A stretch of 42,658 nucleotides of DNA from Desulfonatronovibrio magnus (lineage in GTDB: Bacteria > Desulfobacterota > Desulfovibrionia > Desulfovibrionales > Desulfonatronovibrionaceae). The position numbers and the translations under genes are program-made. Under the pieces are notes generated by a model. The model was not told the DNA's origin, did no database searches, and worked only from the letters and a program-made list of their open reading frames with translations. Of the stretch, positions 9,402 through 36,134 are shown one piece after another; the first letter of the stretch is position 1, and each line of letters opens with the position of its first letter. The stretch covers positions 52,113-94,770 of the forward strand of contig NZ_KN882182.1 of NCBI RefSeq assembly GCF_000934755.1, written 5' to 3'.

Positions 9402-9402
9402 A
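9358..9402 (+). other. attL core (45 bp) within tRNA-Glu
   Basis: From the anticodon loop through CCA plus one base; identical to 34565-34609. The match breaks immediately on both sides (c/t at the left, t/a at the right). Confidence 0.93.
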
Positions 9403-14776: not shown

Positions 14777-14778
14777 GG

Positions 14779-15918: not shown

Positions 15919-17381
15919 CCCAACATCCCTTCCAGTTCCTTCCGTCCCTGAAAAATCTCATCATCCAGCTCAGCCAGCCGCTCCAGAATCACCCTGGGTG
16001 GGTCATAATCCACTTCCTCGTATTCAATCTCCTTATATCTGTTGATGGACAAATCATAATCATTGGAGGCTATCTCTGCCTTGGGAACCAGAAAACTTTT
16101 ATCCGTGCGTTTTCGCTCTGTTTCAGCCTCAAGGTTCTGCCACCTGGTCATAATGTCAGACAGATCACTCTTATCCGGCTGGGGAGTGCGTTTATCATCT
16201 AAGGAGAAGCCATCGTTCTGCATATCATAAAACCAGACATTATCTGTCCCGCCGGAATTGGTCCTGGTAAACAGCAGTATGGCTGTAGATACCCCGGCAT
16301 AAGGCTTAAATACACCAGAAGGCATGGAGATAATGGCATCAAGCTTCTGATCTTCCACCAGAATTTTACGCAGGGTCTTGTGCGCATTGGATGAGCCGAA
16401 TAACACCCCATCCGGAACAATAACAGCAGCCCTGCCTCCGGTCTGAAGCAGGCGCAGAAAAAGTGTCAGAAATAACAGCTCTGTTTTCTTGGTCTTTACA
16501 ACCTGCAGCAGATCCTTGGCCGTAGATTCAAAATCCAGACTTCCGGCAAAGGGTGGATTAGCCAGGACCAGAGTATATTTCTCCTCATCCAGTTCATCAG
16601 CCTGAGCTAAGGAATCCTTATATCTGATATCCGGATTTTCCACGCCATGCAGAAGCATATTCATGCTACCGATCCTGAGCATTGTGGTATCAAAATCATA
16701 CCCGTGAAACGTGCCTTCATTGAATTTCCGGCGGCTTTCCGGGTCTTTGTAGATTAGGTCGCTGTGGTTTTTAACCAGGTATTCTGAGGCTGAAATAAGA
16801 AAACCCGCAGTACCGCAGGCTGGATCGCAAATAATATCTTTGGGAGAGGGAGCAGTCATATCCACCATGAGCTTGATGATATGGCGGGGTGTACGGAACT
16901 GCCCGTTCTGCCCTGCACTGGCAATTTTTCCCAGCATATATTCGTACAGATCACCCTTGGTATCGCTGTCCGTCATTTCAATGCTGTCTAACTGATCCAC
17001 GACACTGGCCAGAACCCTGGGAGTAGGCATGAGGAACAAGGCGTCCTTCATGTGATGGGTGTATGTGGAATTCCCATTGTTGTTCAGATTCTTGATGAAG
17101 GGAAAAACTTCATCCCGCACAGTCTCAAACATTTGCTCCGGTGCGGTTTCCTTGAACCGGGACCAGCGAAGATTTTCCTGGTTATCCTTGAAAATAGGCC
17201 TTTCAATGGGCTTGCCTGTTCGGGAGGCCTGGCGTTCCTTGAGAGTATGAAGCTCATCTAAGCGCTTGATAAACAGCAGATAAGTCAACTGTTCAATAAC
17301 AGACAAAGGATTGGAAATTCCACCAGACCACATAGTATCCCAGATGCGGTCAATTTTGGACTTGAGTTCACCGGTTATCAT
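15915..17381 (-). CDS. hsdM: Type I restriction-modification N6-adenine methyltransferase subunit
   Basis: 488 aa. Methylates adenine in the HsdS-defined target and is needed for restriction. N-terminal HsdM_N bundle (LKSKIDRIWDTMWSGGIS), then the AdoMet-binding motif I ICDPACGTAGFL (about 186-197) and the catalytic motif IV NPPF (about 276-279). LGKIASAGQNGQFRTPRHI upstream of motif I is also characteristic. First gene of the hsd operon. The divergent gene at 17591 lies about 210 bp away, so that gap should hold the hsd promoter. Confidence 0.96.
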   Translation of the reverse strand: MITGELKSKIDRIWDTMWSGGISNPLSVIEQLTYLLFIKRLDELHTLKERQASRTGKPIERPIFKDNQENLRWSRFKETAPEQMFETVRDEVFPFIKNLNNNGNSTYTHHMKDALFLMPTPRVLASVVDQLDSIEMTDSDTKGDLYEYMLGKIASAGQNGQFRTPRHIIKLMVDMTAPSPKDIICDPACGTAGFLISASEYLVKNHSDLIYKDPESRRKFNEGTFHGYDFDTTMLRIGSMNMLLHGVENPDIRYKDSLAQADELDEEKYTLVLANPPFAGSLDFESTAKDLLQVVKTKKTELLFLTLFLRLLQTGGRAAVIVPDGVLFGSSNAHKTLRKILVEDQKLDAIISMPSGVFKPYAGVSTAILLFTRTNSGGTDNVWFYDMQNDGFSLDDKRTPQPDKSDLSDIMTRWQNLEAETERKRTDKSFLVPKAEIASNDYDLSINRYKEIEYEEVDYDPPRVILERLAELDDEIFQGRKELEGMLG

Positions 17382-18240: not shown

Positions 18241-18565
18241 ATTACGAAAATTACCATAGAACGTGATGGTGAGAAACCTATGACTTTTAATGGACGCCTG
18301 GTTAACCTGAAGAGGATCGAAAACGAGCAGTCTGGCCTAGCCTTGAAGCTGTTGCGTATTCCACGGTAAGGTGACCACCTGAAGGAAACAGTATGAGCTG
18401 GACTTCACTTATTGGGACATGCTGAACAACAAAAGAACCCTGGTTGAAAAGGATGAGTTTATAAACCAGATGTACATCTGGGAGACTCTTTCAGGCCCGA
18501 ATCCAAAAAAAGTAAATTCAAAGGTAAAAAGAGTGATGGATTTGGGCCCGACTTCACCAGTTTGA
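18241..18565 (+). pseudogene. Decayed hypothetical gene, frameshifted
   Basis: Two collinear protein-like pieces in different frames: KITIERDGEKPMTFNGRLV...LALKLLRIPR (18247-18369, then TAA) and YELDFTYWDMLNNKRTLVEK...YIWETLSGP (from about 18390 to the TGA at 18563). Together they read like one protein of about 105 aa broken around 18365-18390. I do not recognise the family. Its end runs into the first iteron (18552), so the iterons may have expanded over a dead gene. Confidence 0.45.
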
Positions 18566-18698
18566 CAACCGTAACACGAATATTAAAAAGTTATACGGAT
18601 AGTAACACGATTTATAGAATTAGGTGTAAAAATTAGTAATCTCGTACTATCTTAGTATGAAATTATCCGGATTTCGTTAATTATATTAGTAACTTAGC

Positions 18699-18731
18699 CC
18701 GACTTCACCATTGTCACAACGGTGAAGTCGG
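18699..18731. repeat. 33-bp palindromic iteron pair
   Basis: Perfect 11-bp arms CCGACTTCACC and GGTGAAGTCGG around the centre ATTGTCACAAC. The same centre and shorter arms recur at 19780-19806. Confidence 0.85.
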
Positions 18732-19048
18732 TAAAAAAAAGATAAACAAAATAAATAGTTATGCCATAAAACTTTAGTAAAACTCAGCAAATTTTTTTCC
18801 TTCAAAATGAGGTTAAATACCTGTATTTATTAAGAAATGGGTACTTCACTTAGACTTCACCAGAATGACAATTTTTAAGGCCATTGTCAAAACGGTGAAG
18901 TTTGCCCCTTTAACATAGAGTCACCCTGCCTTCCGCTTCCCAAAAAAACCTCCAAATCCCAAAAAGACTTCACCAGAATGACAATTTTCGGCATTTTACT
19001 AAGTAGACTAAACCCTTGATATTATTATTAATAGAGGTGTTTTGTAAT

Positions 19049-19462
19049 GCAAATTGTCAAACTGGTGACCTTTACACCCACCCTAGGGTCCCTTATGTAA
19101 AAACGTTATTTTTATTATTATGTTTATTTTATGTTTTTATCGTTATTTTTCCTATATTTTCTACTATATTTCCTGTTAGCCAAGTAATACCAACGACTTT
19201 AAAATCGTGTTACTTTTTTCCTTATATATTTCAATAGTTTATATAGTATATATAATATATTATATAATAATAATAATTTTTATTTATTTATTATTTGCAG
19301 CAATCGCGGAAGAAACAATAAAAGAAAAAAATATATGCAAACAAGTAAAAACTACTAACCAAAAAAGTAACACACACCCCAGTAACACACACTGGGAAAT
19401 TATACTTTTTCCATAAGGGTACCTAGGGTGGGTGTAAATGTTACCAGTTTGACAATTTGAGC
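19049..19462. repeat. 50-bp inverted repeat flanking a 314-bp AT-rich core
   Basis: The left arm 19049-19097 and the right arm 19412-19462 are imperfect reverse complements. Each contains one iteron (GTCAAACTGGT core) and the block TTTACACCCACCCTAGG. The 314 bp between them are extremely AT-rich, with runs such as atataatatattatataata near 19247-19270. This looks like a melting region set between symmetric initiator sites. Confidence 0.75.
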
Positions 19463-20057
19463 ACTAATTTTCAATAAAGTGTGCAATAATAACAACTTAT
19501 CTACTTACTGATAAACACTAAAATTGTCATTCTGGTGAAGTCTTTACCTGAATATTCCAGCTACTTTAAATATAGAACCTATATACCTCATAGCTTAAGC
19601 CCTTAAACTTCACCGTTTTGACAATCACCCTAAAAATTGTCATTCTGGTATGATATAATTTTAAGTACCTTTACCTAATAAAAACAAGTACTTATACCTT
19701 TATTGAACAAAAAAGTGTCTCTGAGTTTCACTAAAGTTTTATACCGTGCTACCGTGAAATAATTGAATTTTTCGCTCATACTTCACCATTGTCACAACGG
19801 TGAAGTCCCCAGATTCCCACGCCCAGCAACGCTTTAACCAAAAAATACCCTACTAAAAAAGTGCATTATTAAGCTAAAGTAACACGAATTCGTAATACGT
19901 ATGTTTTTCTACCAAAATGGTCAAGGATGCTGATCATGTCATTAAAAAATATTGAGTAACACAATCTTTACCAAGCTGGTATAGAATTAGCAACACCATT
20001 TTCAAAAAAGTATTTCTTAAAAATCCGATTTCTGAACCTTATACATTTGCGATTTCG

Positions 20058-21497: not shown

Positions 21498-24173
21498 ATG
21501 TCGAAACAATCTGAAAAAATTAGCTTGTCGGTAATTTCCGGAGAAAAACCAAAACTGTTGACCAAAACTTTTATGCTGGATTCCGAAAAAAGGCTTAATA
21601 AGGTTTCTGGCGGGCAGTTGGTTAAAGGTTTTGTGGAACGGGTTGAAGTTAATAATGTTGAGGAACTGGCTGATCTGGTTATGAGCCTGGGGACGGATAA
21701 ATGCCTGGCATATGGTGTACCTAAGGAGCACGATACCGCAATTTTGTCATCATCCTCTCAGTCTATCACTACAAGAACCCACCAGAAAATTCACGCTAGT
21801 TGCAAGAATCCACAGCGCCGAAAAGATGCAAAACCCGTGATAGAGAGGTGCCGAGATAATTTCCAGTATCCAATGGGGGCAGGAGTTTTCATGCTGGATG
21901 TTGACTGCCCAAAAGGGGCGGAGCGGCTTGATCCGGAAGAAGTTCTTGCCAAGTTATACAAGGTGTGCCCTGCACTCGGTAGAGCTCCACACGTTTCTTT
22001 TAGCTCTTCCTCATCCAATATTTTTAACTCTGAAACAGAAGAAAAGTTAATAGGTATAAAGGGGTTACGCATTCTGGTCGTTGTAAAAAATGCTGCGGAT
22101 ATTCCCCGGGCCGGTGCTGTTCTGCTTAAAAAACTATGGCTGGATGGTCACGGCCACATTGAGATCAGCAAGTCGGGCGCACTGCTGGTGCGGACCCTGG
22201 TTGATGGTGCGGTCTGGCAGCCAGAAAGGCTGGACTTTTGTGCGGGGTCTAACTGCGTGGCGCCTCTGGAACAGCGCAGGCCTGATCCCGTTGTTTTTAA
22301 TGCGGATTGTGATTTTCTTGATACAGCAGCCGCTTTACTTGATCTAAGCCCGGAAGAAGAAGCTAAGTACGAAAAATTGGTTGCAGAGGCCAAAGGGAAC
22401 GCCAGGCCTGAAGCTGAAGATGTGCGAGAAACTTACATTGGAGCGAAGATCCTCGAAGAAGCCGGAGAAGACGGACTCAAGAACCCTGAAGTGGTTGAAA
22501 ACATAAGGAAAAGAGTGGTCAGAGCCCTGGATGATTCTGAGTTGGAAGCAGGTCATGTCATTACTCTTTCCGATGGAAAAAAGGTAACTGTAGAGGAACT
22601 GCTAAATAAACCAGATACTTACGACGGGAGATACTGCTGTGACCCCCTTGAACCCGACTATAATGGCAACAGCCAGGTTGCCTGGGTTAGCCTTAAAGAG
22701 GGCGCGCCAATTATATATAGTCACGCTCATGGGGGCAGAAAATTCTATCTTGTAGCAGGTAAAATAAAGAAACAGAAAAACAAAGACCTATTAGCTGAAG
22801 TTAATGACCAGTTTGCCGTAGTTCTAATGGGCTCTAAGGTCTGGATTATGAAAGAGTACAAGGACCATGAGGGATACAAAAGGCAGGCGTTTCTCAAATC
22901 TGGTGACTTCAAAACCTATTTGGCCAACAAGCATGTAATGCACAAAAATAAAATGGGCGAGTGGGAGAAAAAACCCCTGGCGAATGAGTGGCTCAAATGG
23001 GAGCACCGGAGACAGTACGATGGTGTAGTATTTGACCCCTCTGAAAAATCAGGGTCTGAGTTTTTTAACCTTTATCAGGGGATGACCGTAAAGCCACAAA
23101 AAGGTGACTGGAGCTTACTCCGGCAGCATGTGCTGGACGTAATCTGCTGTGGGAATGAGAAAATCTTTGATTACCTTATGGCCTGGTGCGCCAGGATTTA
23201 CCAGGACCCCGGCGGGAAGAAACCCGGGACCTGTATTGTCTTAAAAGGGGGTGAGGGGATTGGTAAAAGTATGTTCGTGAAGTTCTTCGGGAAGGCCTTT
23301 GGGGCACATTTTCTCCAGGTTACAAAACCCAACCAGGTTACCGGGAACTTCAATAACCACCAGAAGGATGTGATCTTACTTTTTGTAGATGAAGGTATAT
23401 GGGGCGGAGATAAGGCTGCTGAAGGGGCATTAAAGGCCATGATCACAGAAGAGCACCAGGTTATCGAGGCCAAAGGAAAGGATGCCATCACCGTAGCAAA
23501 TCACATGAATATTATGATCGCATCAAATAATAAGTGGGTTGTACCTGCGGGAAAAGACGCCAGGCGCTTTTTAGTTCTGGATGTTTCAAATAAACGCGCT
23601 GGAAATAAAGAATACTTTAAAGCAATTTATGAGCAGATGGAAAACGGAGGTTTGGAAGCTATGATGTATGATCTCCTTAACCTGGATATTTCTGACATTG
23701 ACCTGCGCCAGGTACCAAGAACATCAGCCTTGTTCGGTCAGATCCTCAGTAGCATGGACCCTGTAGAACTGTACTGGCATGAGAAGCTAAATGACGGAGT
23801 CTTACCCGAAAAAAGCGGTAATTTTTTAAATGATGAACCTACCTGCAACCGTTGGATAGACCGGGTTTTGAAAAGTCAGCTTGAAAAGGACTATCATGCA
23901 TTCTGCAACAAGACAAACGTACGATATAAAAAATCTAAGGATCAACTTTGTAAGGAACTACTGACAATATGTCCTGGACTCAGCACGACCAAAATGCGGT
24001 CTGGAATTAAAAGAGAATCCGCGTTTATTGTTCCTAAGCTGGATGTATGCCGTAAAATGTTTGAGGATATGGTCAAAATGCCGGTTGATTGGGATGAGCC
24101 CGTTGAAGAAAAACCAGAGATAAACGAGATGGATCAAAAACAGAACAATGAACCTATTGTACTATTTTTCTAG
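21498..24173 (+). CDS. PrimPol-SF3 helicase replication protein
   Basis: 891 aa. Probably primes and unwinds the element's origin, as in P4-alpha-like or plasmid primase-helicases. In the N-terminal half, FMLDVDCPKG (about 131-140) supplies the paired aspartates of an archaeo-eukaryotic primase fold, followed by SFSSSSSN and HIEISKSGALLVRTLVDG. The linker has a DUF5906-like lead-in. In the C-terminal half the SF3/AAA helicase has Walker A KGGEGIGKSM (about 584-592), Walker B LLFVDEGIWGG, and NIMIASNNKWVVP (sensor/motif C) with DARRFLVLDVS (Arg finger region). GGAGG upstream is a little far from the ATG (12 nt). Adjacency to the iteron region strongly suggests initiator function. Confidence 0.85.
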   Translation: MSKQSEKISLSVISGEKPKLLTKTFMLDSEKRLNKVSGGQLVKGFVERVEVNNVEELADLVMSLGTDKCLAYGVPKEHDTAILSSSSQSITTRTHQKIHASCKNPQRRKDAKPVIERCRDNFQYPMGAGVFMLDVDCPKGAERLDPEEVLAKLYKVCPALGRAPHVSFSSSSSNIFNSETEEKLIGIKGLRILVVVKNAADIPRAGAVLLKKLWLDGHGHIEISKSGALLVRTLVDGAVWQPERLDFCAGSNCVAPLEQRRPDPVVFNADCDFLDTAAALLDLSPEEEAKYEKLVAEAKGNARPEAEDVRETYIGAKILEEAGEDGLKNPEVVENIRKRVVRALDDSELEAGHVITLSDGKKVTVEELLNKPDTYDGRYCCDPLEPDYNGNSQVAWVSLKEGAPIIYSHAHGGRKFYLVAGKIKKQKNKDLLAEVNDQFAVVLMGSKVWIMKEYKDHEGYKRQAFLKSGDFKTYLANKHVMHKNKMGEWEKKPLANEWLKWEHRRQYDGVVFDPSEKSGSEFFNLYQGMTVKPQKGDWSLLRQHVLDVICCGNEKIFDYLMAWCARIYQDPGGKKPGTCIVLKGGEGIGKSMFVKFFGKAFGAHFLQVTKPNQVTGNFNNHQKDVILLFVDEGIWGGDKAAEGALKAMITEEHQVIEAKGKDAITVANHMNIMIASNNKWVVPAGKDARRFLVLDVSNKRAGNKEYFKAIYEQMENGGLEAMMYDLLNLDISDIDLRQVPRTSALFGQILSSMDPVELYWHEKLNDGVLPEKSGNFLNDEPTCNRWIDRVLKSQLEKDYHAFCNKTNVRYKKSKDQLCKELLTICPGLSTTKMRSGIKRESAFIVPKLDVCRKMFEDMVKMPVDWDEPVEEKPEINEMDQKQNNEPIVLFF

Positions 24174-25126: not shown

Positions 25127-25545
25127 TTTCAGAAAAAAATATCATGGGCACTCAGGACAATAACCTGGGTGCCGCCCTTCTCCAACAGGCCTATAAAGCG
25201 TCCACGCCAAAAAACCAAGAATCACCCGAAATAACAGCTGCTTTTTTTACAGAAACCGCACCGCGTAACCCTTTGGAAGCCATGATTATATCCCAGATGG
25301 CGGCTGCACATGCGCACGCAATGGAGATGTTCGCGGGGGCAAAAAACAGCACGATTCACGAAGTCGAAATTGCCAGGCTGAAGATGGCAGAAAAACTTAT
25401 GCGCACTTTTGCAAATTCTTTGGATGTGTTGGAGCGCTCTAGGAGGAAAGTTCATCAAAGTGTTAAGGTCGAGCACGTCCACGTAAACGCCGGCGGTCAG
25501 GCAATAGTGGGCTGTGTATCCCAGGGGGGGGTAAAAAATGAATAA
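25114..25545 (+). CDS. Conserved mobile-element protein (HVHVNAGGQAIVG type)
   Basis: 143 aa from a GTG preceded by AGGAGG at 7 nt. A helical region with LEAMIISQMAAAHAHAMEMF and ARLKMAEKLMRTFANSLDVLERSRR is followed by a C-terminal VEHVHVNAGGQAIVGCV. This closing motif is familiar from short proteins next to a PKGN.NA.KHG protein in prophages and integrative elements of proteobacteria (recalled, not searched). Function is not known; a DNA-packaging or partition accessory has been only a guess. The downstream small gene starts within its last codons. Confidence 0.65.
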   Translation: MSDLVSEKNIMGTQDNNLGAALLQQAYKASTPKNQESPEITAAFFTETAPRNPLEAMIISQMAAAHAHAMEMFAGAKNSTIHEVEIARLKMAEKLMRTFANSLDVLERSRRKVHQSVKVEHVHVNAGGQAIVGCVSQGGVKNE

Positions 25546-25693
25546 AACAAGTGACACACCGAAAGGCCCTCCTAAAGGTAATAAAAATGCTGTCAAGCAT
25601 GGCTTTTTTACCCAAAAAGAAATCAAGAAAAGGAAGGCCTTGCACGGACTGATCCGCGATCTAAAAACTTTAACTAAAAAAATCGGAGATTAA
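25538..25693 (+). CDS. Small basic protein, PPKGNKNAVKHG type
   Basis: 51 aa, overlapping the preceding gene by 8 bp. It reads TPKGPPKGNKNAVKHGFFTQ then KKRKALHGLIRDLKTL, which matches the pattern of the small partner that usually follows HVHV..GGQAIVG proteins. It is strongly basic, consistent with nucleic-acid contact. The role is unknown. Confidence 0.65.
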   Translation: MNKTSDTPKGPPKGNKNAVKHGFFTQKEIKKRKALHGLIRDLKTLTKKIGD

Positions 25694-25863: not shown

Positions 25864-25891
25864 TACACGGAGTACAAAAAAAGTTAGTATA

Positions 25892-25918
25892 GGGGGGCTT
25901 CGGCCTCCCTTTTTTTTT
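25892..25918 (+). terminator. Intrinsic terminator of the replication operon
   Basis: GGGGGGC-TTCG-GCCTCCC hairpin with a UUCG tetraloop (one G-T pair), directly followed by eight T. Confidence 0.9.
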
Positions 25919-26134: not shown

Positions 26135-26278
26135 ATGTTCATTGTACTCGAATTATTCGACTTATCCTTCCCCTGCATCGTAATTGATGAAGATGGAATC
26201 CCGATCATCTTTGAAACCAGAGAGGGCGCAGAACAAGCAGCCCAAGAGCTGCATGACCCAAGAATATTGGAGGTATAA
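26135..26278 (+). CDS. Small acidic hypothetical protein (47 aa)
   Basis: ATG 26135 preceded by CAGGAGG with 9-nt spacing, one of the best ribosome binding sites in the operon. It reads MFIVLELFDLSFPCIVIDED then TREGAEQAAQELHDPRILEV. Its last codons contain the GGAGG used by the next gene, so the pair is translationally linked. Family unknown; first gene of the right-hand operon. Confidence 0.6.
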   Translation: MFIVLELFDLSFPCIVIDEDGIPIIFETREGAEQAAQELHDPRILEV

Positions 26279-26279
26279 C

Positions 26280-27275
26280 ATGCTGAACCTACAAACCTTC
26301 CATACGGGCTTACAAACAGCCCAGATCCTTGAAACAGAAGCAACTTTGGGAGATCGAAGGCTCTACATTGGAGCCAGTGATATCGCCCAGTGCCCACGTA
26401 AAGTAGTTAAAGGCAAAACTAACCCGCAACCACATACCTTGCAGTCTCTGATAAGATTCAAGAGAGGACATATTGCGGAGGACATAATTTCAGAAGCTCT
26501 GCATGCCTTTCAGCATGAGAGGCAGATGGCGCTTGAATATGTGGCATCTTATTGTCCTCTATGCCACTGGTATGGGCAAAACACTCGGCACTGTCCCAAG
26601 TGCAGTACCCAGCTGAGTTCTCTGCCCCTCACAGCTCACCTGGATTTTGTATTCCCGGATAACACGATTCTGGAAGTTAAAACCACCAGCCTGCCAGCCA
26701 TCCAGAAGTCATGGGAAATGCAACTCCAGACCCAGATGTATCTGTACAAAGAAATACAAGGAACATCCCCGAGGGGCTATATCCTGACCATGGACATCGC
26801 TGAAGGAACCCTGAACCTCACTGAACCCTACACGTTGAACGAAGCAGCTGCGGATGAGATAATTGGCAGGGCTATAAACCTCTGGGAATCTCTGAGATCT
26901 GAAGCATCTCAGCCCGAAACAGAACCCTCTGCCTTGTGTTGCGTATGTGAGTATTTAAGTGACTGCCCTGCTTTTGAAGGAAACACCTTGCCTGAAGAGG
27001 TAACCCCGCTGATAGCTGAGTATCATAGTGCAGGTATGGTGGAAAAAGAAGCAGCTAAGGATAAATCCCGGTTAAGAACAGCTATTCTGGGAGCGCTCTC
27101 CCCCGGTAAGTACCAGGCTGGGGATTTCCGTATCTCCCTAAGCCAGAGGTCAAGAACCTCAACAGATAACAAGGCCATAGCTTTTCTTCTCAAGGAATTA
27201 GGCCAGGACATCTCAAAGTATCAGTCCAAGTCTACATACCCAGTGCTGGACATCAAGCACATCTCTGCAAAGTAA
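26280..27275 (+). CDS. Cas4/RecB-like PD-(D/E)XK nuclease with Fe-S cysteines
   Basis: 331 aa from the ATG at 26280, GGAGG 6 nt upstream. Nuclease core: GHIAED (Glu67), AHLDFVF (Asp122), ILEVKTT (Glu132, Lys134) and the QLQTQMYLY motif (148-156), i.e. motifs I-IV of RecB-type exonucleases. Cys38 in SDIAQCPRK plus Cys220/221, Cys223 and Cys229 in CCVCEYLSDC form the four-cysteine 4Fe-4S pattern of Cas4 and AddB. An extra CPLC...CPKC zinc ribbon (Cys92, 95, 105, 108) sits between motifs I and II. The C-terminal tail (FRISLSQRSRTSTDNKA) resembles that of phage YqaJ-type exonucleases. Most likely a DNA end-processing exonuclease paired with the annealing protein at 31087. Confidence 0.8.
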   Translation: MLNLQTFHTGLQTAQILETEATLGDRRLYIGASDIAQCPRKVVKGKTNPQPHTLQSLIRFKRGHIAEDIISEALHAFQHERQMALEYVASYCPLCHWYGQNTRHCPKCSTQLSSLPLTAHLDFVFPDNTILEVKTTSLPAIQKSWEMQLQTQMYLYKEIQGTSPRGYILTMDIAEGTLNLTEPYTLNEAAADEIIGRAINLWESLRSEASQPETEPSALCCVCEYLSDCPAFEGNTLPEEVTPLIAEYHSAGMVEKEAAKDKSRLRTAILGALSPGKYQAGDFRISLSQRSRTSTDNKAIAFLLKELGQDISKYQSKSTYPVLDIKHISAK

Positions 27276-27315
27276 TCCCCTACCATACAACGCAATAACC
27301 AATAAGGAGGCTCCC

Positions 27316-27513
27316 ATGACAAAGGCGCAGAGGCATAAGTACGTCCAAAATTCAGAGGACCTAATCTCAATATTCAACTCAAGCATTGGGAAGAAGTTCA
27401 AGCTTGACTGTGGGCATCATCTCTCAATCAGGCCCGGCTGCTTCCTGACTAACGACTTTGTAATCTATCAGGGCACAAAAAAGGTGGTTTGTACCTTGTG
27501 CGCTTACTCTTAA
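27316..27513 (+). CDS. Small zinc-finger protein
   Basis: 65 aa; GGAGG 5 nt before the ATG. CGHH (in KLDCGHHLSI) and CTLC (KKVVCTLCAYS) give four potential zinc ligands, a zinc-ribbon arrangement. The 5' half is basic and helical. It sits between the Cas4-like nuclease and the AAA ATPase in the same operon, with short spacers of 40 and 21 bp. Function unknown. Confidence 0.6.
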   Translation: MTKAQRHKYVQNSEDLISIFNSSIGKKFKLDCGHHLSIRPGCFLTNDFVIYQGTKKVVCTLCAYS

Positions 27514-27534
27514 AACATTCAAAGGAGAATCAAA

Positions 27535-28461
27535 ATGCCTACAGTGAAAGAATTATTTCATCCTTCGTTCCCGGATATTCAATGGTCCGTAAGGGATAAA
27601 CATGACTTTCAAAACTATGTCCCCAACAAAACAGACTACCAGTTCAGACCCGAAACAACTGCAGATTTCCTTGGCTGGCTGCAATTCGGTGGCCTGAGCT
27701 CCTTGATCTCAGGCCCCACAGGCAGCGGTAAATCAAGCTTAGTGAACGAAGTAGCAGCCCGCAGCAACATTCCTGTATTCCCCATTGTCGGCCACAACCG
27801 CTTGGAATGGCTGGACCTTGCTGGTCAGTATGTACCCAATGATAAAGGCGGCTTCACTTACGAGTATGGTCCACTACCCATGGCTATGAAAGCAGGAGGT
27901 ATCTTCTTATTCGATGAGATTGACCTGGTGGACCCTTCTACTTTGGTGGCCCTGAACTCTGTATTGGATGGCCGCCCCCTGGTCCTGTCTGCCAATAATG
28001 CTGAAGTGATAAAACCACACAAGGACTTCAGGCTTGTAGCGACTGCAAACACTACCGGACACGGCGATGGCGAGGCCAATGGCTATTCCGGTACTCTGAA
28101 GATGTCCCGGGCCTTCATGAATAGACTGCAGTGGACCTTCAAAGTGGATTACCCTGAACCGGAAGTTGAGACCCAGATAGTAGAGGGTATTACCGGCAAC
28201 AAAGAGATAGCGAAGCAGATGGTGAGTTTTGCTGCTGAAGTGCGTCAAGCGCATAAGTCTGAAGAGGCCCACATTCCAGACACAATGTCTACAAGAGAGA
28301 TCAGGGAATGGGCTAAGGCTGCACTGTTTTTCCAGAAAGTCCCCAGAATAAACAACCCTCTTTCCGAGGCTCTAAAATACGTGCTGTTAAACAAGTGCAG
28401 CGAAGACGGAAGGCCTGTTATCTCTGAAATCTATCAAAGAATATTCAATCAGGAGTTATAG
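27535..28461 (+). CDS. MoxR/CobS-type AAA+ ATPase
   Basis: 308 aa. Walker A ISGPTGSGKSS (about 58-68), Walker B GGIFLFDEIDL (121-131) and sensor LVATANTTGHGDGEA (168-181), with the pre-Walker region of MoxR/CbbQ/CobS ATPases. These AAA proteins act with VWA-domain partners, as in CobS-CobT cobalt chelatase and MoxR chaperones; here the VWA partner is 29369-31075. AAAGGAG precedes the ATG. The next gene begins 2 bp after the stop. No cobalamin genes are nearby, so chelation is unlikely and a remodelling role on DNA or protein is inferred. Confidence 0.9.
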   Translation: MPTVKELFHPSFPDIQWSVRDKHDFQNYVPNKTDYQFRPETTADFLGWLQFGGLSSLISGPTGSGKSSLVNEVAARSNIPVFPIVGHNRLEWLDLAGQYVPNDKGGFTYEYGPLPMAMKAGGIFLFDEIDLVDPSTLVALNSVLDGRPLVLSANNAEVIKPHKDFRLVATANTTGHGDGEANGYSGTLKMSRAFMNRLQWTFKVDYPEPEVETQIVEGITGNKEIAKQMVSFAAEVRQAHKSEEAHIPDTMSTREIREWAKAALFFQKVPRINNPLSEALKYVLLNKCSEDGRPVISEIYQRIFNQEL

Positions 28462-28463
28462 CA

Positions 28464-29354
28464 ATGAAAGATCAAATATTTGAAAATTCAGTAGGCTTGA
28501 TACTCGATATTAAACTGTGGAGTGGCTCCAAGAACCTCAAGGCAGAGGACTTCAAAGACGTGGAGCTCCCCCCGGAGGATCTTATTTCTCTGGGATCTAA
28601 AAGGATCCATGCCAAGGAGAAGTTCAAGCCCATCCAGCAGGTCCGTACCAAAACCTTAACCTATCTTGAGTCCGTAGCTGTTTCTCTGTACTCGGGAAAG
28701 ATCTGGATCATTCCAGAAGCCAGAAAGACAGAAGTAGAAAGTGCCTTAAAAGAGTTCGCAACAGAATTCATACAAGAGAAAGCTCAGTTTCTGTCCCGCT
28801 TCGATAAGGATCAGACAGAGTGGCTGGAGCAAAATAAAAAATGGTCCCGGATAATCGCCCCCTACCTTGAAACCCCGGAAAGTGTGGAAAAGAAATTCAG
28901 CTTTACCTGGAGGAGCTTTAAGATGTCTGCATCGGAACAGGTAGCCCAGGACCTGACTGGCAGTGTGCTACACGAAATAAGTCAGATCTCCAGTGATGTA
29001 TATGAAAGTATTAGAGGCAGGGAGCGAGCTACCCCGAAAAATCTGAACCGTATAGAGCGGCTGCAGGGTAAGCTGCAGGGGCTGGCTTTTGTGCAGCCGG
29101 GTGTGACTACGATAGAATTGGAACTGTCTAAAATTATGGACGAGCGAGATACTGGCGGAGCCTTGGAGGGCCATGGGTTATTCCGGCTTATACGCCTACT
29201 CATCCAGCTTAAGAATCCGGGTATATTGAAGGATATCCTTGAGGCAGCAAGAAGTGGCAAGGATTATCAGTTCAAGTACGACGCTCCACAAAAGACTACT
29301 ACCCTACCACCAATCCCACACAATCAACCCAGACTCCCAGAGGCCTGGTTTTAA
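28464..29354 (+). CDS. DUF3150 family protein
   Basis: 296 aa, starting 2 bp after the AAA ATPase gene. The N-terminal half (ILDIKLWSGSKNLKAEDF, later GSKRIHAKEKFKPIQQVRT and VSLYSGKIWIIPE) has the pattern of DUF3150, a family found between CobS-like AAA and VWA genes in integrative elements. The C-terminal half is helical and charged. It probably bridges the ATPase and the VWA protein. Function unknown; the family name is my recognition from memory. Confidence 0.75.
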   Translation: MKDQIFENSVGLILDIKLWSGSKNLKAEDFKDVELPPEDLISLGSKRIHAKEKFKPIQQVRTKTLTYLESVAVSLYSGKIWIIPEARKTEVESALKEFATEFIQEKAQFLSRFDKDQTEWLEQNKKWSRIIAPYLETPESVEKKFSFTWRSFKMSASEQVAQDLTGSVLHEISQISSDVYESIRGRERATPKNLNRIERLQGKLQGLAFVQPGVTTIELELSKIMDERDTGGALEGHGLFRLIRLLIQLKNPGILKDILEAARSGKDYQFKYDAPQKTTTLPPIPHNQPRLPEAWF

Positions 29355-29368
29355 AGGAGTACAACATA

Positions 29369-31075
29369 ATGCTCTCACCTCCCCAGATGATATCGCTGGC
29401 TACAACGCTGGCAAGAAAGAATAAAGTGGATGTAAAATTCGATAATTCCAGCACAGCAGCCACAGATGGTAAAACCATTATCCTGCCCCTTACAAGTAAG
29501 GAGAATTCGTGGATAGTCCGTGGCTATCTGGATCACGAAATTGGGCATGTCAGATTAACGGACTTTGGGACCATCCCCAAAAAGACAGCTCTGCACAAGT
29601 CCTTATGGAATATCCTGGAAGATATCCGCATAGAACAAAGGATGTCTGAGCTCTATCCGGGCATGGCCACTAATCACCTGAAATTAATAACTGAGCTGCT
29701 TACAGCTGAACCTGGAATATTTGAGGTCAAGCCCGGTGATCACCCTGCAGGTATAATCTGCGGATATCTGGTTCTGCTATTAAGAACCCAGCACCTGAAA
29801 CAGACGGTACTGAATGACCTTGAACAAAAGGCAGACCAGGTATTCCAGAGTGCCTTCGGCTCAGAACTACAAAAGGATATGCTGGATATTGTTCTGCCTT
29901 ACTCCAGGGTACAAAGCCCTGAAGATGTATCTGAGATGGTTGAAGACCTGCTGCAACTCCTTTCTAAGCACTTACAGAAGCAGAAGGAGAGACAACCCAA
30001 GCCCGACAGTTCTGAACAGAAAGATTCCAAGCCTGAGTCTGAGTCTGATAGATCCGGCACTCAGGATTCCACTAATTCTGAAAAAAGATACATAGATTCC
30101 AGTAATTCAGAAAATACAGAGAACCTCGATGATCAACCTGGCAACTCAGAGCTATACAGCGAAGGGCCTGCATCTCGTGCCACAGACACCATACAAGCCA
30201 TAAAAGAGGCTCTGAACTCCACAGAAGAGCAACAGGACATTGGAACCCAACTGAAAAACCTGGCGCTGGAAAAAGAATCACAGGAAAGGATTAGCCGTGC
30301 TGTTGCTATACCGGCAAAAGAAAAGGTCATTCGGGATTTTGGCTATACGCCGCAAGAGATCAAAGCCCCCTCAAAGCTTGTTTCCAAATTATCGGCAAAT
30401 CTGCGGGGTCTCCTTCAGGCCCAGGTGCTGGACCATTCCAGACCCGGCTTATCCGGTAACAGGATAGCCCGTAACCAGGTGCACAAGATAAGGACTGGTG
30501 AGCCCCGGCTATTCTTGCGCAGGTCTCCAGTTAAACAGGTAAATACTGCAGTGCATATCCTTTTGGATAACTCATCCTCAATGCGTAACTATTACAGATT
30601 CGAGATAGCCAAGAATACAACCCTGGCTCTACTCAGATCTCTATCTTATGTCAGAGGCATCAATCTGGCCCTAAGTATATTCCCGGCAGTGTACCCTTAC
30701 CACCTCAGTGGAGGCTCAGAAACAGTCCCTGTAGCTGAGATAAGAAGGCAGGGAAATAAAATACTCTACCCTGCCAAACCCAAAGGCAGCACACCTCTGG
30801 CCCCGGCTGTAAGACTTGCTGCAAGCAGGTTATGGGAACTTACTGAGTCCAGAAAAATACTGCTGATCATAACTGATGGTGAGCCAGACAGCAGAGTAGA
30901 GGCAGAGATAGCCATCAAAGAGGCTATAGACCTGGCTATAGAAGTGGTGTGCCTGGGGATTGAAGATGTTGCCTATCCGGAAATATTCCCAATCTATGAG
31001 ATCGTGAAGGACGTTAAAGGCTTGCCCCATAAGGCCTTTAACCTGTTTGAACAACTCTTAACCACACAACCATAA
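29369..31075 (+). CDS. CobT-like VWA protein with HEIGH motif
   Basis: 568 aa. The N-terminal region contains GYLDHEIGHVRLTDFG (His56-Glu57...His60) followed by LEDIRIEQRM with Glu84, the layout of a zincin-like metalloprotease or its degenerate relative. The middle (about 200-280) is Ser/Glu/Asp-rich and probably disordered. The C-terminal VWA domain starts VHILLDNSSSM, giving a complete DxSxS MIDAS (Asp400, Ser402, Ser404). GSTPLAPAVRL and LLIITDGEPDS supply the other MIDAS elements. AAAGGAG precedes the start. It is the expected partner of the MoxR-like ATPase two genes upstream. Whether the HEIGH site is catalytic cannot be told from sequence. Confidence 0.88.
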   Translation: MLSPPQMISLATTLARKNKVDVKFDNSSTAATDGKTIILPLTSKENSWIVRGYLDHEIGHVRLTDFGTIPKKTALHKSLWNILEDIRIEQRMSELYPGMATNHLKLITELLTAEPGIFEVKPGDHPAGIICGYLVLLLRTQHLKQTVLNDLEQKADQVFQSAFGSELQKDMLDIVLPYSRVQSPEDVSEMVEDLLQLLSKHLQKQKERQPKPDSSEQKDSKPESESDRSGTQDSTNSEKRYIDSSNSENTENLDDQPGNSELYSEGPASRATDTIQAIKEALNSTEEQQDIGTQLKNLALEKESQERISRAVAIPAKEKVIRDFGYTPQEIKAPSKLVSKLSANLRGLLQAQVLDHSRPGLSGNRIARNQVHKIRTGEPRLFLRRSPVKQVNTAVHILLDNSSSMRNYYRFEIAKNTTLALLRSLSYVRGINLALSIFPAVYPYHLSGGSETVPVAEIRRQGNKILYPAKPKGSTPLAPAVRLAASRLWELTESRKILLIITDGEPDSRVEAEIAIKEAIDLAIEVVCLGIEDVAYPEIFPIYEIVKDVKGLPHKAFNLFEQLLTTQP

Positions 31076-31086
31076 AGGAGAAACAT

Positions 31087-31689
31087 ATGCTTCAACAGAC
31101 TAATTTGCCAGAAATCAGAAAGCCCCAGCTTCCCAAGCTGGACGAGCGCTTTATGATCAACCTGAAGGGGAAGGATTTTGTAACGTACGCTGGACTATTG
31201 GACCTTGCGCATCAGCAAGGCCTGGTAAAGCTTGAGGTCCAGCCCTTACAGATGCCTACAGAGGACAATGGTTTACAGGCTATCTGCCTCGCTACAGCAG
31301 TCACTACAGGAGGCAAGGTATTCTCAGACTTAGGCGACGCCTCTCCCCGAAATACCAATAAGATGGTAGCCGCCCACTTAATCAGAATGGCCAGCACAAG
31401 AGCAAAAGCCAGAGTACTTCGAGATATTACGAATATCGGAATCACAGCCCTGGAGGAACTGTCAGGTGAAGAATATCCCAACCATCATAGTGGTAATGGT
31501 AATGGCAACGGCAATACCCTACCAGCAATTACAGAAGCCCAAAGAAGAGCCATATCCAACCTGGGCAGGATAAAAGGCTACAGCCACCAAGAACTGGACC
31601 AGGTATCAAAAGAGTACTTCAGCAAGGAAGTGTCCAGGCTCAGCGCCCAAGACGCCTCTGAGCTGATCATAAAACTTCAACAGACATAA
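31087..31689 (+). CDS. Putative single-strand annealing/recombination protein
   Basis: 200 aa, AAAGGAG before the ATG. The conserved-looking block runs from NLKGKDFVTYAGLLDLAHQQ through FSDLGDASPRNTN to RMASTRAKARVLRDITNIGI. I read it as a distant Rad52/Sak-like annealing protein because of the T-R-A-K-A-R-L-R-N-I-G pattern and the nearby exonuclease gene. This is an inference. After residue 140 a linker (HHSGNGNGNGN) leads to a small helical domain (QRRAISNLGRIKGYSHQEL...). Its place at the end of the operon with the Cas4-like nuclease would give an exonuclease-annealase pair. Confidence 0.55.
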   Translation: MLQQTNLPEIRKPQLPKLDERFMINLKGKDFVTYAGLLDLAHQQGLVKLEVQPLQMPTEDNGLQAICLATAVTTGGKVFSDLGDASPRNTNKMVAAHLIRMASTRAKARVLRDITNIGITALEELSGEEYPNHHSGNGNGNGNTLPAITEAQRRAISNLGRIKGYSHQELDQVSKEYFSKEVSRLSAQDASELIIKLQQT

Positions 31690-31704
31690 ATAAGGAGCAA
31701 AGAC

Positions 31705-31812
31705 ATGCGCAGTCACAATAATGGAGGAAACGAGATGGTCATTCAGTTTATCGCTACAGTTATATCCTGCCTCTGGGACGCCTTCGGACCTGACAGCTGC
31801 AGGAGGAAATAA
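31705..31812 (+). CDS. Tiny hypothetical protein (35 aa)
   Basis: ATG 31705 after AAGGAGCAAAGAC. The peptide reads MRSHNNGGNEMVIQFIATVI then SCLWDAFGPDSCRRK. A central hydrophobic stretch and three Cys/Trp-rich positions are visible. The gene ends 2 bp before the next one. Coding is supported by the ribosome binding site and tight spacing only. Confidence 0.4.
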   Translation: MRSHNNGGNEMVIQFIATVISCLWDAFGPDSCRRK

Positions 31813-31814
31813 CC

Positions 31815-31970
31815 ATGTGGAGCGTTATCAAACTGGGCAAATTCCTGGGCGCAGATGTGTCTGAGTCAGAAAGAAGCTTCAAGACCGAACAGCAGGCCCG
31901 AGAGTACGCAGCCCTGATAATCAAACTATCCGGTGTGTACGGAGTTATGATCGAGTACTATAACGATTAA
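31815..31970 (+). CDS. Small hypothetical protein (51 aa)
   Basis: ATG 31815, with GGAGGAAATAACC upstream (AGGAGG inside the end of the previous gene). Reads MWSVIKLGKFLGADVSESER then FKTEQQAREYAALIIKLSG and VYGVMIEYYND, a compact alpha-beta protein of the kind typical of phage and ICE accessory genes. No family assigned. Confidence 0.55.
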   Translation: MWSVIKLGKFLGADVSESERSFKTEQQAREYAALIIKLSGVYGVMIEYYND

Positions 31971-31988
31971 CCCTGGGGAGGTAGGGAT

Positions 31989-32153
31989 ATGCAGGATATA
32001 CACGGAGTCTCAAAGATAGGCTCCAAGCTCAGGCAGGAGATTCGGAGGAACACAATGAGCTACCACGAGCGAAAGCACTACTTCTGGAAGCGCCAGGCTT
32101 ATGCCTTGTGGTGTGCTGTTGTAGTCTTGAGTGGCTTGGTAATCCTCTGGTAA
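31989..32153 (+). CDS. Small membrane protein (54 aa)
   Basis: ATG 31989 after GGGGAGGTAGGGAT. A basic N-terminus (KIGSKLRQEIRRN, HERKHYFWKRQ) is followed by one C-terminal transmembrane helix (AYALWCAVVVLSGLVILW), so it should be tail-anchored in the inner membrane. Last gene of the operon. Function unknown. Confidence 0.55.
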   Translation: MQDIHGVSKIGSKLRQEIRRNTMSYHERKHYFWKRQAYALWCAVVVLSGLVILW

Positions 32154-32199: not shown

Positions 32200-32784
32200 T
32201 CAAATCTCATTCATCAAAATCCCATTGACTTCCTTGTCCTCAATACCCAGGTAACGCATGGTGACCGCAGGGCTGCTATGATTAAACCGCTTACAGAGAA
32301 CCTCGAAGCCTACCCCGTACTTGATCCGCTGAATATATCCAAATGTCTTACGCAGGCTATGTGTCCCGTAGTTGCCTCTCAGATTAATAGCCTTGCACCA
32401 GGACTTAACGAGTCTATTGGCTGCACTTACAGTTATTGCCCTGCTGCCCTTCTTGCTTTTGAACAGATAGTCATCAGGCTCGAGCCCGGCACCGGCCAGG
32501 TAGTCCTCCAAAGCTCTATGCACAGACCTATTGATCAGCAAAATATTGTCCTTGTCCGTCTTCTGCTCACGGATACGTAGTGTCTCTCCAGGCCTCAAAC
32601 CTTGAACTTGCTTCACCTTCAGCTTCAGGATATCTCCGATCCGCAAGCCATTGTTGATTCCTATGGTAAACAGCAGCAAGTCTCTCGGCTTATTTTGGAG
32701 CAACTGCTTGATGGCTTTGATGTCTTCCAGGTTTCTTATGGGCTCAACTTTTATGGAGCTGCCCTTTTGTGGATGGTTTGTCAT
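32200..32784 (-). CDS. Second, short tyrosine recombinase
   Basis: 194 aa, essentially only a catalytic domain, as in Tn916-independent short integrases of plasmids and resolvase-type recombinases. Catalytic residues: Arg in NNGLRIGDILKLK, Lys in REQKTDKDN, His/Arg in HSLRKTFGYIQR, His in FNHSSPAVT, Tyr in MRYLG. No arm-binding domain is present, so it may resolve plasmid multimers rather than integrate the element. It faces the convergent operon across the shared terminator. It is independent of the 368-aa integrase at the left end. Confidence 0.88.
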   Translation of the reverse strand: MTNHPQKGSSIKVEPIRNLEDIKAIKQLLQNKPRDLLLFTIGINNGLRIGDILKLKVKQVQGLRPGETLRIREQKTDKDNILLINRSVHRALEDYLAGAGLEPDDYLFKSKKGSRAITVSAANRLVKSWCKAINLRGNYGTHSLRKTFGYIQRIKYGVGFEVLCKRFNHSSPAVTMRYLGIEDKEVNGILMNEI

Positions 32785-32992
32785 AGGTTCAAGCTATATC
32801 AACTAAAATGAAATTAAGTCAATAATAATTTGCGTTTACCTACCAAAGTGAAGGTAGTGGGGTTGGGGGGCTACAAGTACAACGCTGATTTTATTGGATA
32901 TTTTTTATCTAAAAAGCTTAATATCAACTTTTGGACAAAAGTTGGTATTTAATCTTCTTGCAATGTTTCAAGCCCTGAGATATCTATCCATT

Positions 32993-33997
32993 ATGTCATT
33001 TGAAATTCCATCCCCACACGATGTAGGCTTCAAGACCTTTTTCCAGGATAAAGAGCTGGTCCGGGATTTCATCAACCACTACATACCAGATGAAATCAAG
33101 TCATATCTGGATCTGTCAGTAATAGAAATTGATATCAGCGGGTTTGTAGCTGAAGAGTTTAAAGAGTTCCGCACTGACGTGGTTGTGAGAGTGCAACTAA
33201 AAAATAGCGATCAGATGGCAGATCTCTATTTCCTGTTTGAGCATAAAAGTTACCCAGACAGGTACGCCCGCCTTCAAGCTCTTCACTATTCGGTCCAGAA
33301 ATGGATGAATCTGTACAGACGAAATAAGCTCGGCGGCTACTTGCCTATAGTTATCCCTGTGATTATTTATCATGGTGTAAGCGAATGGACATTCAGCCAC
33401 GAATTTGAAGACTATTTTGAAATACCCCATGAATCATTCAGGGTTTTTGTTCCTAAATTCAGGCATTTGCTGCATGACATAACCCATATGAGAGACGAGG
33501 CTTTCAAAACCTCTATCCTTATGGAAATATTTCACCTGCTTTTTAAGTACATACACTTCCCTGAGCTGGACATAAAGTTGCAGGAAATATTTGACTTGCT
33601 TGAGCAGCTGCCTGATGAGGACAAGAGAAAAGAATATCTGTTTAATATTTTGAAATACGTACTGGCATCTGGCTCCTTGAGTGAGGAGCGGGTAACTGAG
33701 CATACCAGACGATTTCCAGGAGGTAAGGATATGGTAGGAGTAGCAATGCAAGAAATTGAAAAAAGGGTTGAGCAAGCAAGGAGACCTTATTGGGAGGGTG
33801 TTGCTAAACTTGAAAACGCCCAGGAAACCTTGATAGACCTCGCAACAGAGGTATACGGCCCAATACCCGGCATGCTCCAGGTTAAAATCAAGTCCATTCA
33901 ATCCATAGAGAATCTCAGGGCTCTAAACAGAAAAATAATCAGGACAGAGTCGTTGGATGAATTCACAGAAATGGTAAACACAGCAGCACTCAATTAG
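32993..33997 (+). CDS. Rpn family recombination-promoting nuclease / putative transposase
   Basis: 334 aa from the ATG at 32993; an in-frame upstream extension from 32894 is AT-rich and lacks a ribosome binding site. Opens SPHDVGFKTFFQDKELVRDF, the hallmark of the PF04754 (Transposase_31)/Rpn family. PD-(D/E)XK elements: FRTDVVVRVQL (Asp), LYFLFEHKSYPD (Glu-x-Lys), YSVQKW. Then PIVIPVIIYHG typical of the family. The C-terminus is helical. Rpn proteins cut DNA and promote RecA-independent recombination, and have been linked to phage defence. It is the last gene before attR, a usual place for cargo or defence genes. Confidence 0.85.
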   Translation: MSFEIPSPHDVGFKTFFQDKELVRDFINHYIPDEIKSYLDLSVIEIDISGFVAEEFKEFRTDVVVRVQLKNSDQMADLYFLFEHKSYPDRYARLQALHYSVQKWMNLYRRNKLGGYLPIVIPVIIYHGVSEWTFSHEFEDYFEIPHESFRVFVPKFRHLLHDITHMRDEAFKTSILMEIFHLLFKYIHFPELDIKLQEIFDLLEQLPDEDKRKEYLFNILKYVLASGSLSEERVTEHTRRFPGGKDMVGVAMQEIEKRVEQARRPYWEGVAKLENAQETLIDLATEVYGPIPGMLQVKIKSIQSIENLRALNRKIIRTESLDEFTEMVNTAALN

Positions 33998-34564: not shown

Positions 34565-34609
34565 CTTTCACGCCGGTAACAGGGGTTCAAATCCCCTTGG
34601 GGACGCCAA
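34565..34609 (+). other. attR core (45 bp)
   Basis: Exact duplicate of the tRNA-Glu 3' end (9358-9402), including the T arm and CCA. It lacks the 5' half of the tRNA, so it is not a functional gene. Confidence 0.93.
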
Positions 34610-35380: not shown

Positions 35381-35454
35381 GGGCAGGCGGAACACACGGA
35401 AGGACACAGAATTTGAAGATTTCTTTTCCGTGCTTTTCCGTGTATTCTGTGGGC
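35381..35454. repeat. 74-bp hairpin repeat, copy 1
   Basis: Contains GGAACACACGGAA and, after a short spacer, TTTTCCGTGCTTTTCCGTGT ending in GTGGGC, so CACGGAA and TTCCGTG can pair. Copy 2 is at 36063-36134. The two copies flank the BECR/DUF2283 gene pair in direct orientation. Confidence 0.85.
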
Positions 35455-36062: not shown

Positions 36063-36134
36063 GCCCACGGAACACACGGAAAGTCACTGAACTTAAAGAT
36101 TTTTTTTCCGTGCTTTTCCGTGTATTCTGTGGGC
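36063..36134. repeat. 74-bp hairpin repeat, copy 2
   Basis: GCCCAC-GGAACACACGGAAA ... CCGTGTATTCTGTGGGC; the outer ends GCCCAC and GTGGGC also pair, so the unit can fold into a long hairpin. See copy 1 at 35381-35454. Confidence 0.85.

Follow-up and report, generated by a model that had tools for sequence, protein, structure and literature searches.

The window analyzed here, a 42,658-nt stretch of the Desulfonatronovibrio magnus genome (contig NZ_KN882182.1), carries on an integrated element an operon that encodes an exonuclease and a predicted single-strand annealing protein (SSAP, or annealase) together with three further proteins, referred to below as the trio: a MoxR-type AAA+ ATPase, a DUF3150 protein and a protein with a von Willebrand factor A (VWA) domain. 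Because relatives of the trio are found next to nuclease and annealing genes across many bacteria, the three, which are predicted to form an ATP-driven, protease-like machine, may be an overlooked helper of recombination.

The operon and its proteins

The operon lies on the plus strand, downstream of a candidate terminator hairpin with a T run (25891–25918, +; consensus match). It opens with a putative small open reading frame (ORF) of 47 aa (26135–26278), followed by the exonuclease, a Cas4/RecE-like PD-(D/E)XK protein of 331 aa (26280–27275), and by a 65-aa cysteine-rich, zinc-knuckle-like protein (27316–27513) that matches no family in Pfam, PHROGs or NCBIfam. The trio comes next, with the MoxR/CobS-type AAA+ ATPase (27535–28461; AAA_5, 1.8e-20), the DUF3150 protein, whose C-terminus reads -LPEAWF (28464–29354; PF11348, 6.6e-49), and an HExxH metallopeptidase-like protein with a MIDAS-bearing VWA domain (29369–31075; CobT PF06213, 9.5e-10; VWA_2, 2e-7). 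The SSAP gene (31087–31689) precedes a small ORF starting at 31721, for which no sibling match was found, a 51-aa gene that sibling elements in the host genome also keep (31815–31970) and a 54-aa gene with conserved copies on five contigs of that genome (31989–32153). The co-directional operon recognized in the preliminary description is therefore real in its layout: every gene named there is present, on the same strand and closely packed.

Contig C75 holds a second copy of the operon from the cysteine-rich gene to the annealase, with AAA, DUF3150 and VWA in between; its cysteine-rich protein is 90% identical over 58 aa. The ratio of nonsynonymous to synonymous substitution (Ka/Ks) between the two copies is only 0.03–0.13 for these five genes, which indicates conservation beyond chance; Ks exceeds 1, near saturation, for four of them. 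Contig C60 encodes a DUF3150 protein of another kind and a protein of an unnamed family, whose match to a Sak4-like profile is weaker (phrog_124, 2.8e-9), with the same small genes. That one contig repeats the block and the other joins a different DUF3150 to the same small genes suggests that recombination modules are swapped as units within one genome.

The start of the nuclease gene at 26280 is more likely than an alternative TTG start at 26184 (363 aa), since the former is preceded by GGAGGTATAAC and the latter overlaps the 47-aa ORF. The protein scores barely above the Pfam Cas_Cas4 cut-off (PF01930, 2.9e-5, 24.7 vs 22.7 bits) and matches the Cas4 models of PADLOC (3.5e-7); PHROG_434, ‘RecE-like recombination exonuclease’ (9e-18), is a better fit than the Cas4 profile. 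No cas gene was found among the scanned operon and restriction proteins (Pfam, PHROGs, PADLOC), a scan that covered part of the element's ORFs. Within the nuclease family, the catalytic residues are preserved (D122 and E132 in 23/24, K134 in 24/24, Q148 in 23–24 of 24), as are cysteines of the iron–sulfur (Fe-S) type (C220, C223 and C229 in 24/24, C38 in 22/24), and an extra ribbon, C92/C95/C105/C108, is found in 2 of the 24 members.

At the sequence level, the annealase belongs to no named family: phrog_22961 (function unknown) gave the sole good E-value, and its profile found nothing convincing among PDB sequences. The suggestion that the 31087 protein is an annealase is supported by its AlphaFold2 model (pLDDT 88, pTM 0.58), in which residues 9–120 form a predicted RAD52-type core matching human RAD52 (Foldseek 6e-4, probability 1.00; VIA Z 8.0). 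Residues 144–200 of the model match the C-terminal domain of lambda Red-beta (VIA Z 8.2, rmsd 1.9, 57 residues), a domain whose solved structures include complexes with lambda exonuclease and with the C-terminal peptide of SSB; a Z of ∼8 on a small helical domain is moderate evidence. A search of viral contigs found 22 relatives of the annealase (ORF recovered for 21). Of seven of their loci checked for neighbors, three combine a Mu Gam-like gene with one for replication initiation or helicase loading, the other four giving no match. With its catalytic PD-(D/E)XK residues and a predicted RAD52/RecT/ERF-type fold, the window appears to encode an exonuclease and an annealing protein together, as in two-component SSAP/exonuclease recombination systems.

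The DUF3150 assignment is unambiguous (PF11348, 167 vs a cut-off of 24.9 bits). Its AlphaFold2 model (pLDDT 89.9) has no convincing counterpart in the PDB (Foldseek best E 0.28; VIA best Z 8.8, with helical bundles only), a missing match that does not amount to a new fold. Among its good viral matches, one is named DUF3150 and the rest are unnamed or uncharacterized.

The other two trio genes, an AAA_5-type ATPase gene beside a MIDAS VWA gene, form a MoxR AAA–VWA pair. The AAA protein matches Midasin (several domains) first among PDB profiles, followed by CobS (9ujv, 3.5e-27) and NorQ (2e-13), and the best PDB match of the VWA profile is CobT (9uka, 4e-24). The VWA protein carries the sequence HEIGH at residues 56–60. 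This HExxH motif is shared by 95 of the 97 trio-type VWA proteins, the exceptions being a fragment at a contig end (L185) and a phage protein (L054); H56, E57, H60, E84, D400, S404, T475 and D503 are each kept in 94–97 of the 97, and the MIDAS residues D400, S404 and D503 in all of them. Of the two points first singled out as distinctive, the extra ribbon of the nuclease thus holds, and the fusion of HEIGH with VWA is instead the rule of the family.

The similarity to CobS–CobT raises the question of a cobaltochelatase. The likeness lies in the VWA profile match and in the combination of a CobT-like domain with VWA; the window differs by its third gene, DUF3150, by an intact HExxH and by the lack of a detectable CobN in the host. 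CobN (PF02514) gave no match in the host assembly, which is 97.5% complete, and was found in 5 of 14 control genomes, in keeping with the absence of a cobalamin context remarked on earlier. The NCBIfam equivalog cut-offs were missed by a wide margin (CobS, 104.5 vs 558.6 bits; CobT, 30.5 vs 759 bits). HExxH is absent from both genome CobTs compared, one of which reads HDAATH by eye at the same place; the PDB CobT aligns only from just past the site, so that it is not readable there. A cobaltochelatase was therefore rejected, given the missing CobN, the low equivalog scores and the HExxH kept here and lost in both CobTs. The trio VWA proteins thus retain a metallopeptidase-like site, and CobT, judging from these two sequences, may be a relative in which it decayed.

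The same site recurs in viruses. A single-sequence viral search with the window VWA protein returned no relatives, which were recovered by an alignment-based search; all 71 viral relatives with a score >50 and a length >550 aa have HExxH. Phage and cyanophage CobS-like AAA genes adjoin such an HExxH-VWA gene (viral contigs L058–L137). One study calls the ‘peptidase’ name of viral cobT mistaken and proposes a hijacking of host CobN (PMC8651126); in view of the intact zinc site, a peptidase-like role of the viral proteins is favored here. As a tree of AAA proteins did not place those of the phage CobS-like kind closer to the trio than to CobS, the evidence for this cyanophage reading is the HExxH motif.

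Conservation of the trio beside recombination genes

Genomic neighborhoods were surveyed with a VWA profile scan, from which the best 80 of at least 182 confirmed named bacterial loci were taken, plus loci from further searches. The 97 VWA proteins of adequate length were reduced to 67 at <80% identity and to 48 with ≥7 kb of upstream sequence: 39 from the VWA scan, 6 from a DUF3150 family search, 2 plasmid records and the window. None was picked by its neighbors; 2 of six annotated records picked for reading fall in the 48. Neighbors were counted on the same strand within 9 kb, using profiles seeded from the same locus set, with checks by Pfam, PHROGs or plasmid annotation that covered most of the seeds. 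The 19 of 67 loci dropped for having <7 kb upstream, which include the phage-type L053, L054 and L057, carry AAA in 14, DUF3150 in 13, an exonuclease in 7 and an SSAP in 4 cases.

In the 48 non-redundant loci, the VWA gene is accompanied by AAA in 47, DUF3150 in 48, an exonuclease in 42 and an SSAP in 40; all four are present in 38, and SSB in 24. The 39 loci from the VWA scan alone give the same picture (AAA 38, DUF3150 39, exonuclease 34, SSAP 35), and PHROGs later recognized two further genes, the SSAP of L153 and the exonuclease of L155. The exonuclease lies upstream of VWA in 41/48 and the SSAP in 39/48, with a downstream exonuclease in L036 and a downstream SSAP in the window. Of the 38 complete loci, 31 keep the strict order SSAP-exonuclease-AAA-DUF3150-VWA; the other seven comprise five of the IncC type, which begin with AAA, besides L205 and the window, in which the SSAP comes last. 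Co-occurrence and order are strong enough that the recombination context proposed at the outset is upheld, and the trio is very likely tied to recombination genes. In locus L145 (5027–6973), MoxR AAA was not found by profile and an ATP-dependent-protease-like gene (phrog_4871) stands 5' of DUF3150, a possible replacement of the motor.

The SSAPs of trio loci are of the RecT/Bet, ERF and RAD52-like kinds. On a quick VWA tree, which left out four rows (L053, L054, L057, L185), the SSAP family changes four times, against a shuffled mean of 16.5. When RecT and ERF are each taken singly, three changes of either family are required by well-supported branches. As judged from sequence, AAA, DUF3150 and HExxH-VWA stay with exonuclease–annealase pairs in many bacteria while the annealing family changes.

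The closest described arrangement is that of IncC plasmids. The resemblance to IncA/C noted at first was confirmed in pAR060302, which carries AAA-x-ssb-bet-exo-DUF3150-VWA in a single co-directional block, and the window likewise holds AAA, DUF3150, VWA, exonuclease and SSAP genes on one strand, as in an IncC/SXT-type operon. It differs in its Cas4/RecE-like nuclease and in a RAD52-like annealase sited after VWA; no window ORF matched an SSB profile seeded from the IncC gene, and no conjugation genes were seen among the window ORFs looked at. The VWA protein matches 1446 plasmid records, many of them near-copies, 934 over ≥80% of its length. Rts1 (IncT) has the same gene set, in the order bet-exo-MoxR-DUF3150-VWA, the order being the same from exo to VWA; bet precedes exo by the numbering of the published study (PMC10838148). 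Rts1 differs in being a conjugative plasmid and in a VWA gene interrupted by IS2, with HExxH lying upstream of the insertion and a MIDAS-like motif downstream of it (L218:4030–7192).

Other MoxR–VWA systems share less. NorQ–NorD, RavA–ViaA and similar pairs combine a MoxR-type AAA with a MIDAS VWA protein, to which the window adds an HExxH peptidase-like domain, DUF3150 and recombination genes. A jumbo phage pair likewise joins an AAA protein to a VWA protein fused to a metallopeptidase domain; a function in virion assembly is proposed there, and the portion consulted mentions no DUF3150 or recombination operon (PMC7824862). The word DUF3150 occurs in no paper of the openly licensed PubMed Central set, and none of the papers turned up by the literature searches, whose scope leaves most subscription journals outside, was seen to describe the trio as machinery for recombination. 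The component genes are of known kinds; their union in recombination operons is undescribed as far as the literature was searched.

Aromatic C-terminal ends and the phage variant

Several unrelated proteins of trio loci share an unusual C-terminal feature. The last residue is F, W or Y in DUF3150 (60/63), in lambda-type exonucleases (21/25) and in c6744, the gene after AAA (12/12), compared with 2/63 for AAA, 0/67 for VWA and 65/1085 for other ORFs. Of the three DUF3150 ORFs without such an end, two (L034, L174) are fragments of genes split over two ORFs and the third is L056. Counting one protein per family and locus, an end of two aromatic residues is found in 38/61 DUF3150 proteins, 20/25 lambda-type exonucleases and 12/12 c6744 proteins, against 10/1085 in the background, 0/61 in AAA, 0/66 in VWA and 4/14 in Bet. 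SSB-labeled ORFs, some of which look like wrong frames, end in F in 16 cases and in two aromatic residues in 0/24. Double-aromatic ends are also found on more unlabeled ORFs (groups of 12, 3 and 2), most of them small and located just 5' of DUF3150. In the window, an aromatic end was seen only on DUF3150 (-EAWF) and on the element's primase/helicase (21498–24173, +; -VLFF), the latter being the only unlabeled window ORF listed with a double-aromatic end, on the same strand and within 9 kb of VWA. As far as the literature search shows, aromatic C-terminal ends on unrelated proteins of one operon are undescribed.

A phage version of the system was surveyed with DUF3150 proteins lacking MoxR/VWA neighbors as the query, taking the best 80 of 114 confirmed viral loci and identifying each gene cluster by one Pfam-tested member. 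Among these 80 loci, 25 carry a ∼500-aa PF00004 AAA with no recognized VWA gene, 42 carry another AAA cluster and 42 a DUF2201 metallopeptidase-VWA cluster (both in 38, HExxH in 39/42 DUF2201-cluster members); the two AAA kinds never occur together, and 13 loci have neither. With viral loci pairing DUF3150 with either kind of AAA, often beside the DUF2201 peptidase-VWA, DUF3150 looks like a regular partner of AAA motors that often comes with a peptidase-VWA. The aromatic end of viral DUF3150 follows this division, being present in 29/41 proteins with DUF2201, 0/24 with the 500-aa AAA and 6/13 with neither.

The integrated element, proposed mechanism and alternatives

The operon is part of a 25.2 kb element bounded by perfect 45-nt direct repeats, so that its placement on an integrative element in the preliminary description proved correct. 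The left repeat (attL, 9358–9402, +) covers the 3' end of a tRNA-Glu gene (9324–9401) and the right repeat (attR, 34565–34609, +) is a 100% copy. Adjoining attL is a tyrosine integrase gene (9491–10597, −; NCBIfam tyrosine recombinase models, e.g. NF040815, 9.9e-18, under the equivalog cut-off), and a short tyrosine recombinase of 194 aa (32200–32784, −; PF00589, 9e-18) has an 89% identical copy on contig C56. The element also carries a type I restriction-modification system (R, S, M; 11384–17381) and the primase/helicase (PHROG_16593, 5.7e-63; PHROG_1156, 1.6e-49), 5' of which a partly palindromic 28-nt repeat (ACTTCACC...GGTGAAGT) occurs in six copies (18546–19810); these are iteron-like and possibly mark a replication origin. 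Smaller features are a 51-aa ORF (25538–25690) that phage small-terminase profiles match over a short length (phrog_509, 4e-4), a 367-aa ORF (32894–33997) for a putative Rpn/YhgA-type nuclease, with an 88% identical copy on contig C40, and, past attR amid small ORFs, a 67-nt repeat (91%; 35388–35454 and 36068–36134).

We propose that the trio serves mobile elements as the motor of a Red/RecET-like recombination operon and acts on tagged recombination proteins, a reading to which we assign a probability of about 0.5. The AAA hexamer would be gripped by the VWA protein, as in CobS–CobT and NorQ–NorD, with DUF3150 serving as adaptor or scaffold. The aromatic ends (-WF, -FF, -YF, -LW) of DUF3150, of lambda-type exonucleases and of the gene after AAA would dock on this machine, which might strip, hand over or cleave recombination proteins at DNA ends or annealed intermediates, allowing turnover of annealing and then replication. 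A more specific and more speculative version is that of a tag-directed AAA+ metalloprotease on mobile elements, in which a MoxR hexamer, an HExxH-VWA protease and a DUF3150 adaptor would unfold or cut aromatic-tagged proteins to drive turnover of the annealing complex, and which phages would have rebuilt around DUF3150 with another AAA and the DUF2201 protease-VWA.

Several observations weigh against the motor reading. The tag is missing from several partners: two-aromatic ends are found in 0/22 Cas4-type exonucleases and 0/10 RecT proteins, ERF proteins are likewise untagged (0/11), and the window's own nuclease and annealase carry no such end. In favor of the tag, the residue at position −2 agrees within loci more often than in shuffles between DUF3150 and exonuclease (10/20 vs 5.4 shuffled, p 0.007), DUF3150 and c6744 (8/12 vs 3.8, p 0.013) and exonuclease and c6744 (8/11 vs 4.5, p 0.024), although these statistics ignore shared ancestry. 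The phage contrast between loci with and without a peptidase-VWA is significant at 70% clustering (12/22 vs 0/15) and not at 40% (1/6 vs 0/8). The untagged exonuclease control is weak, consisting of three full-length distant relatives from phages (27–29% to the IncC exonuclease over 52–85%; ends -KGK, -KGK and -QKA) and, from a fourth phage, the latter part of a gene that is split in two (-EIE), all from phages that may or may not carry the trio; the sequence from a fifth (L344) was cut short. By profiles, 4/48 loci have neither exonuclease nor SSAP. In 297 genomes of the phylum, RecT and ERF genes were few (13 and 8 loci), and yet 2 of the RecT and 4 of the ERF loci lie 3–5 kb from an identified DUF3150 gene, which speaks for the link; the other 15 of the 21 are not near one, so that the trio would be at most an accessory. 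In a deletion study of all Rts1 genes but repA, bet and exo are listed as affecting conjugation, and the part of its table consulted names nothing between orf224 and orf239, by position the place of the trio (PMC10838148). Since bet and exo matter there and the trio region is not listed, the trio probably has some role other than transfer, although the VWA gene of Rts1 is interrupted by IS2.

The first alternative concerns the tails. Those of DUF3150 and of the exonuclease might imitate the C-terminal peptide of SSB and bind the Red-beta-like domain of the SSAP or host SSB-binding proteins, not the machine. This is in line with the partners solved with the Red-beta domain and with an acidic stretch before the aromatic end in many DUF3150 tails; however, the double-aromatic end so frequent on tagged proteins is absent from SSB-labeled ORFs, viral DUF3150 ends are of mixed charge (e.g. 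KVDSLLKEFSW), and viral DUF3150 proteins beside an AAA without VWA have no aromatic end. Docking on the machine is more likely because of the double-aromatic pattern and the phage contrast, the latter failing at 40% clustering, and mimicry of SSB is considered unlikely. A comparable, low probability is given to a replication helper that loads or clears fork proteins in recombination-dependent or plasmid-like replication, with the SSAP and exonuclease as part of the same program. A DNA-polymerase-A cluster (one member Pfam-tested) is present in 15 of the best 80 viral DUF3150 loci, 11 of them with DUF2201, some phage VWA-AAA pairs lie near primase, helicase or DNA pol III genes, and the window primase bears the -VLFF end. 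In non-phage loci, in which replication genes were not profiled, the recognized neighbor is instead the recombination pair.

Less probable still is a metal-insertion or assembly chaperone, in which the AAA-VWA pair would supply a partner, in this operon the Fe-S nuclease, with its metal or cofactor. CobS, CobT and NorQ are close solved relatives, NorQD is described as inserting metal (PMC13036017), and the window nuclease has four conserved cysteines of the Fe-S type. However, lambda-type exonucleases, which are not known to be Fe-S enzymes, stand in 25 of the 42 exonuclease-bearing trio loci (that of L036 on the far side of VWA), so that maturing the nuclease with Fe-S or metal is disfavored as the main function, and the lack of CobN and the intact HExxH point the same way. 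Least probable is a role in counter-defense, or in defense as first suggested, in which the machine would shield element DNA ends from host nucleases or attack competitors: the type I restriction system on the same element, the Mu Gam-like end-protection genes beside annealase relatives and the MoxR-VWA conflict systems described in one study (PMC7159879) are consistent with it, but the trio follows recombination genes in most loci and PADLOC gave no match for DUF3150, VWA or annealase, only a marginal one for AAA (mad8, 4.7e-4) and, for the nuclease, Cas4 models.

Recombination of the Red/RecET type is regarded as the work of two proteins. In many bacteria and in IncC plasmids, the nuclease and annealing genes are accompanied by three more conserved, uncharacterized genes, and a motor acting on tagged recombinases would, if true, explain an ignored part of well-studied plasmids. 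The ssb-bet-exo genes of SXT recombine DNA, and in E. coli Bet and Exo are ∼50-fold less active than lambda or RecET, with no help from added SXT Ssb (PMC3118119). This leaves room for a missing helper, which the motor might supply if SXT carries the trio. The same reading would put the viral CobST in question as cobalamin genes. The aromatic tag makes the idea testable with short peptides, and a tag-directed machine, if confirmed, would be a counterpart of ClpXP made from parts known so far as metal-insertion chaperones.

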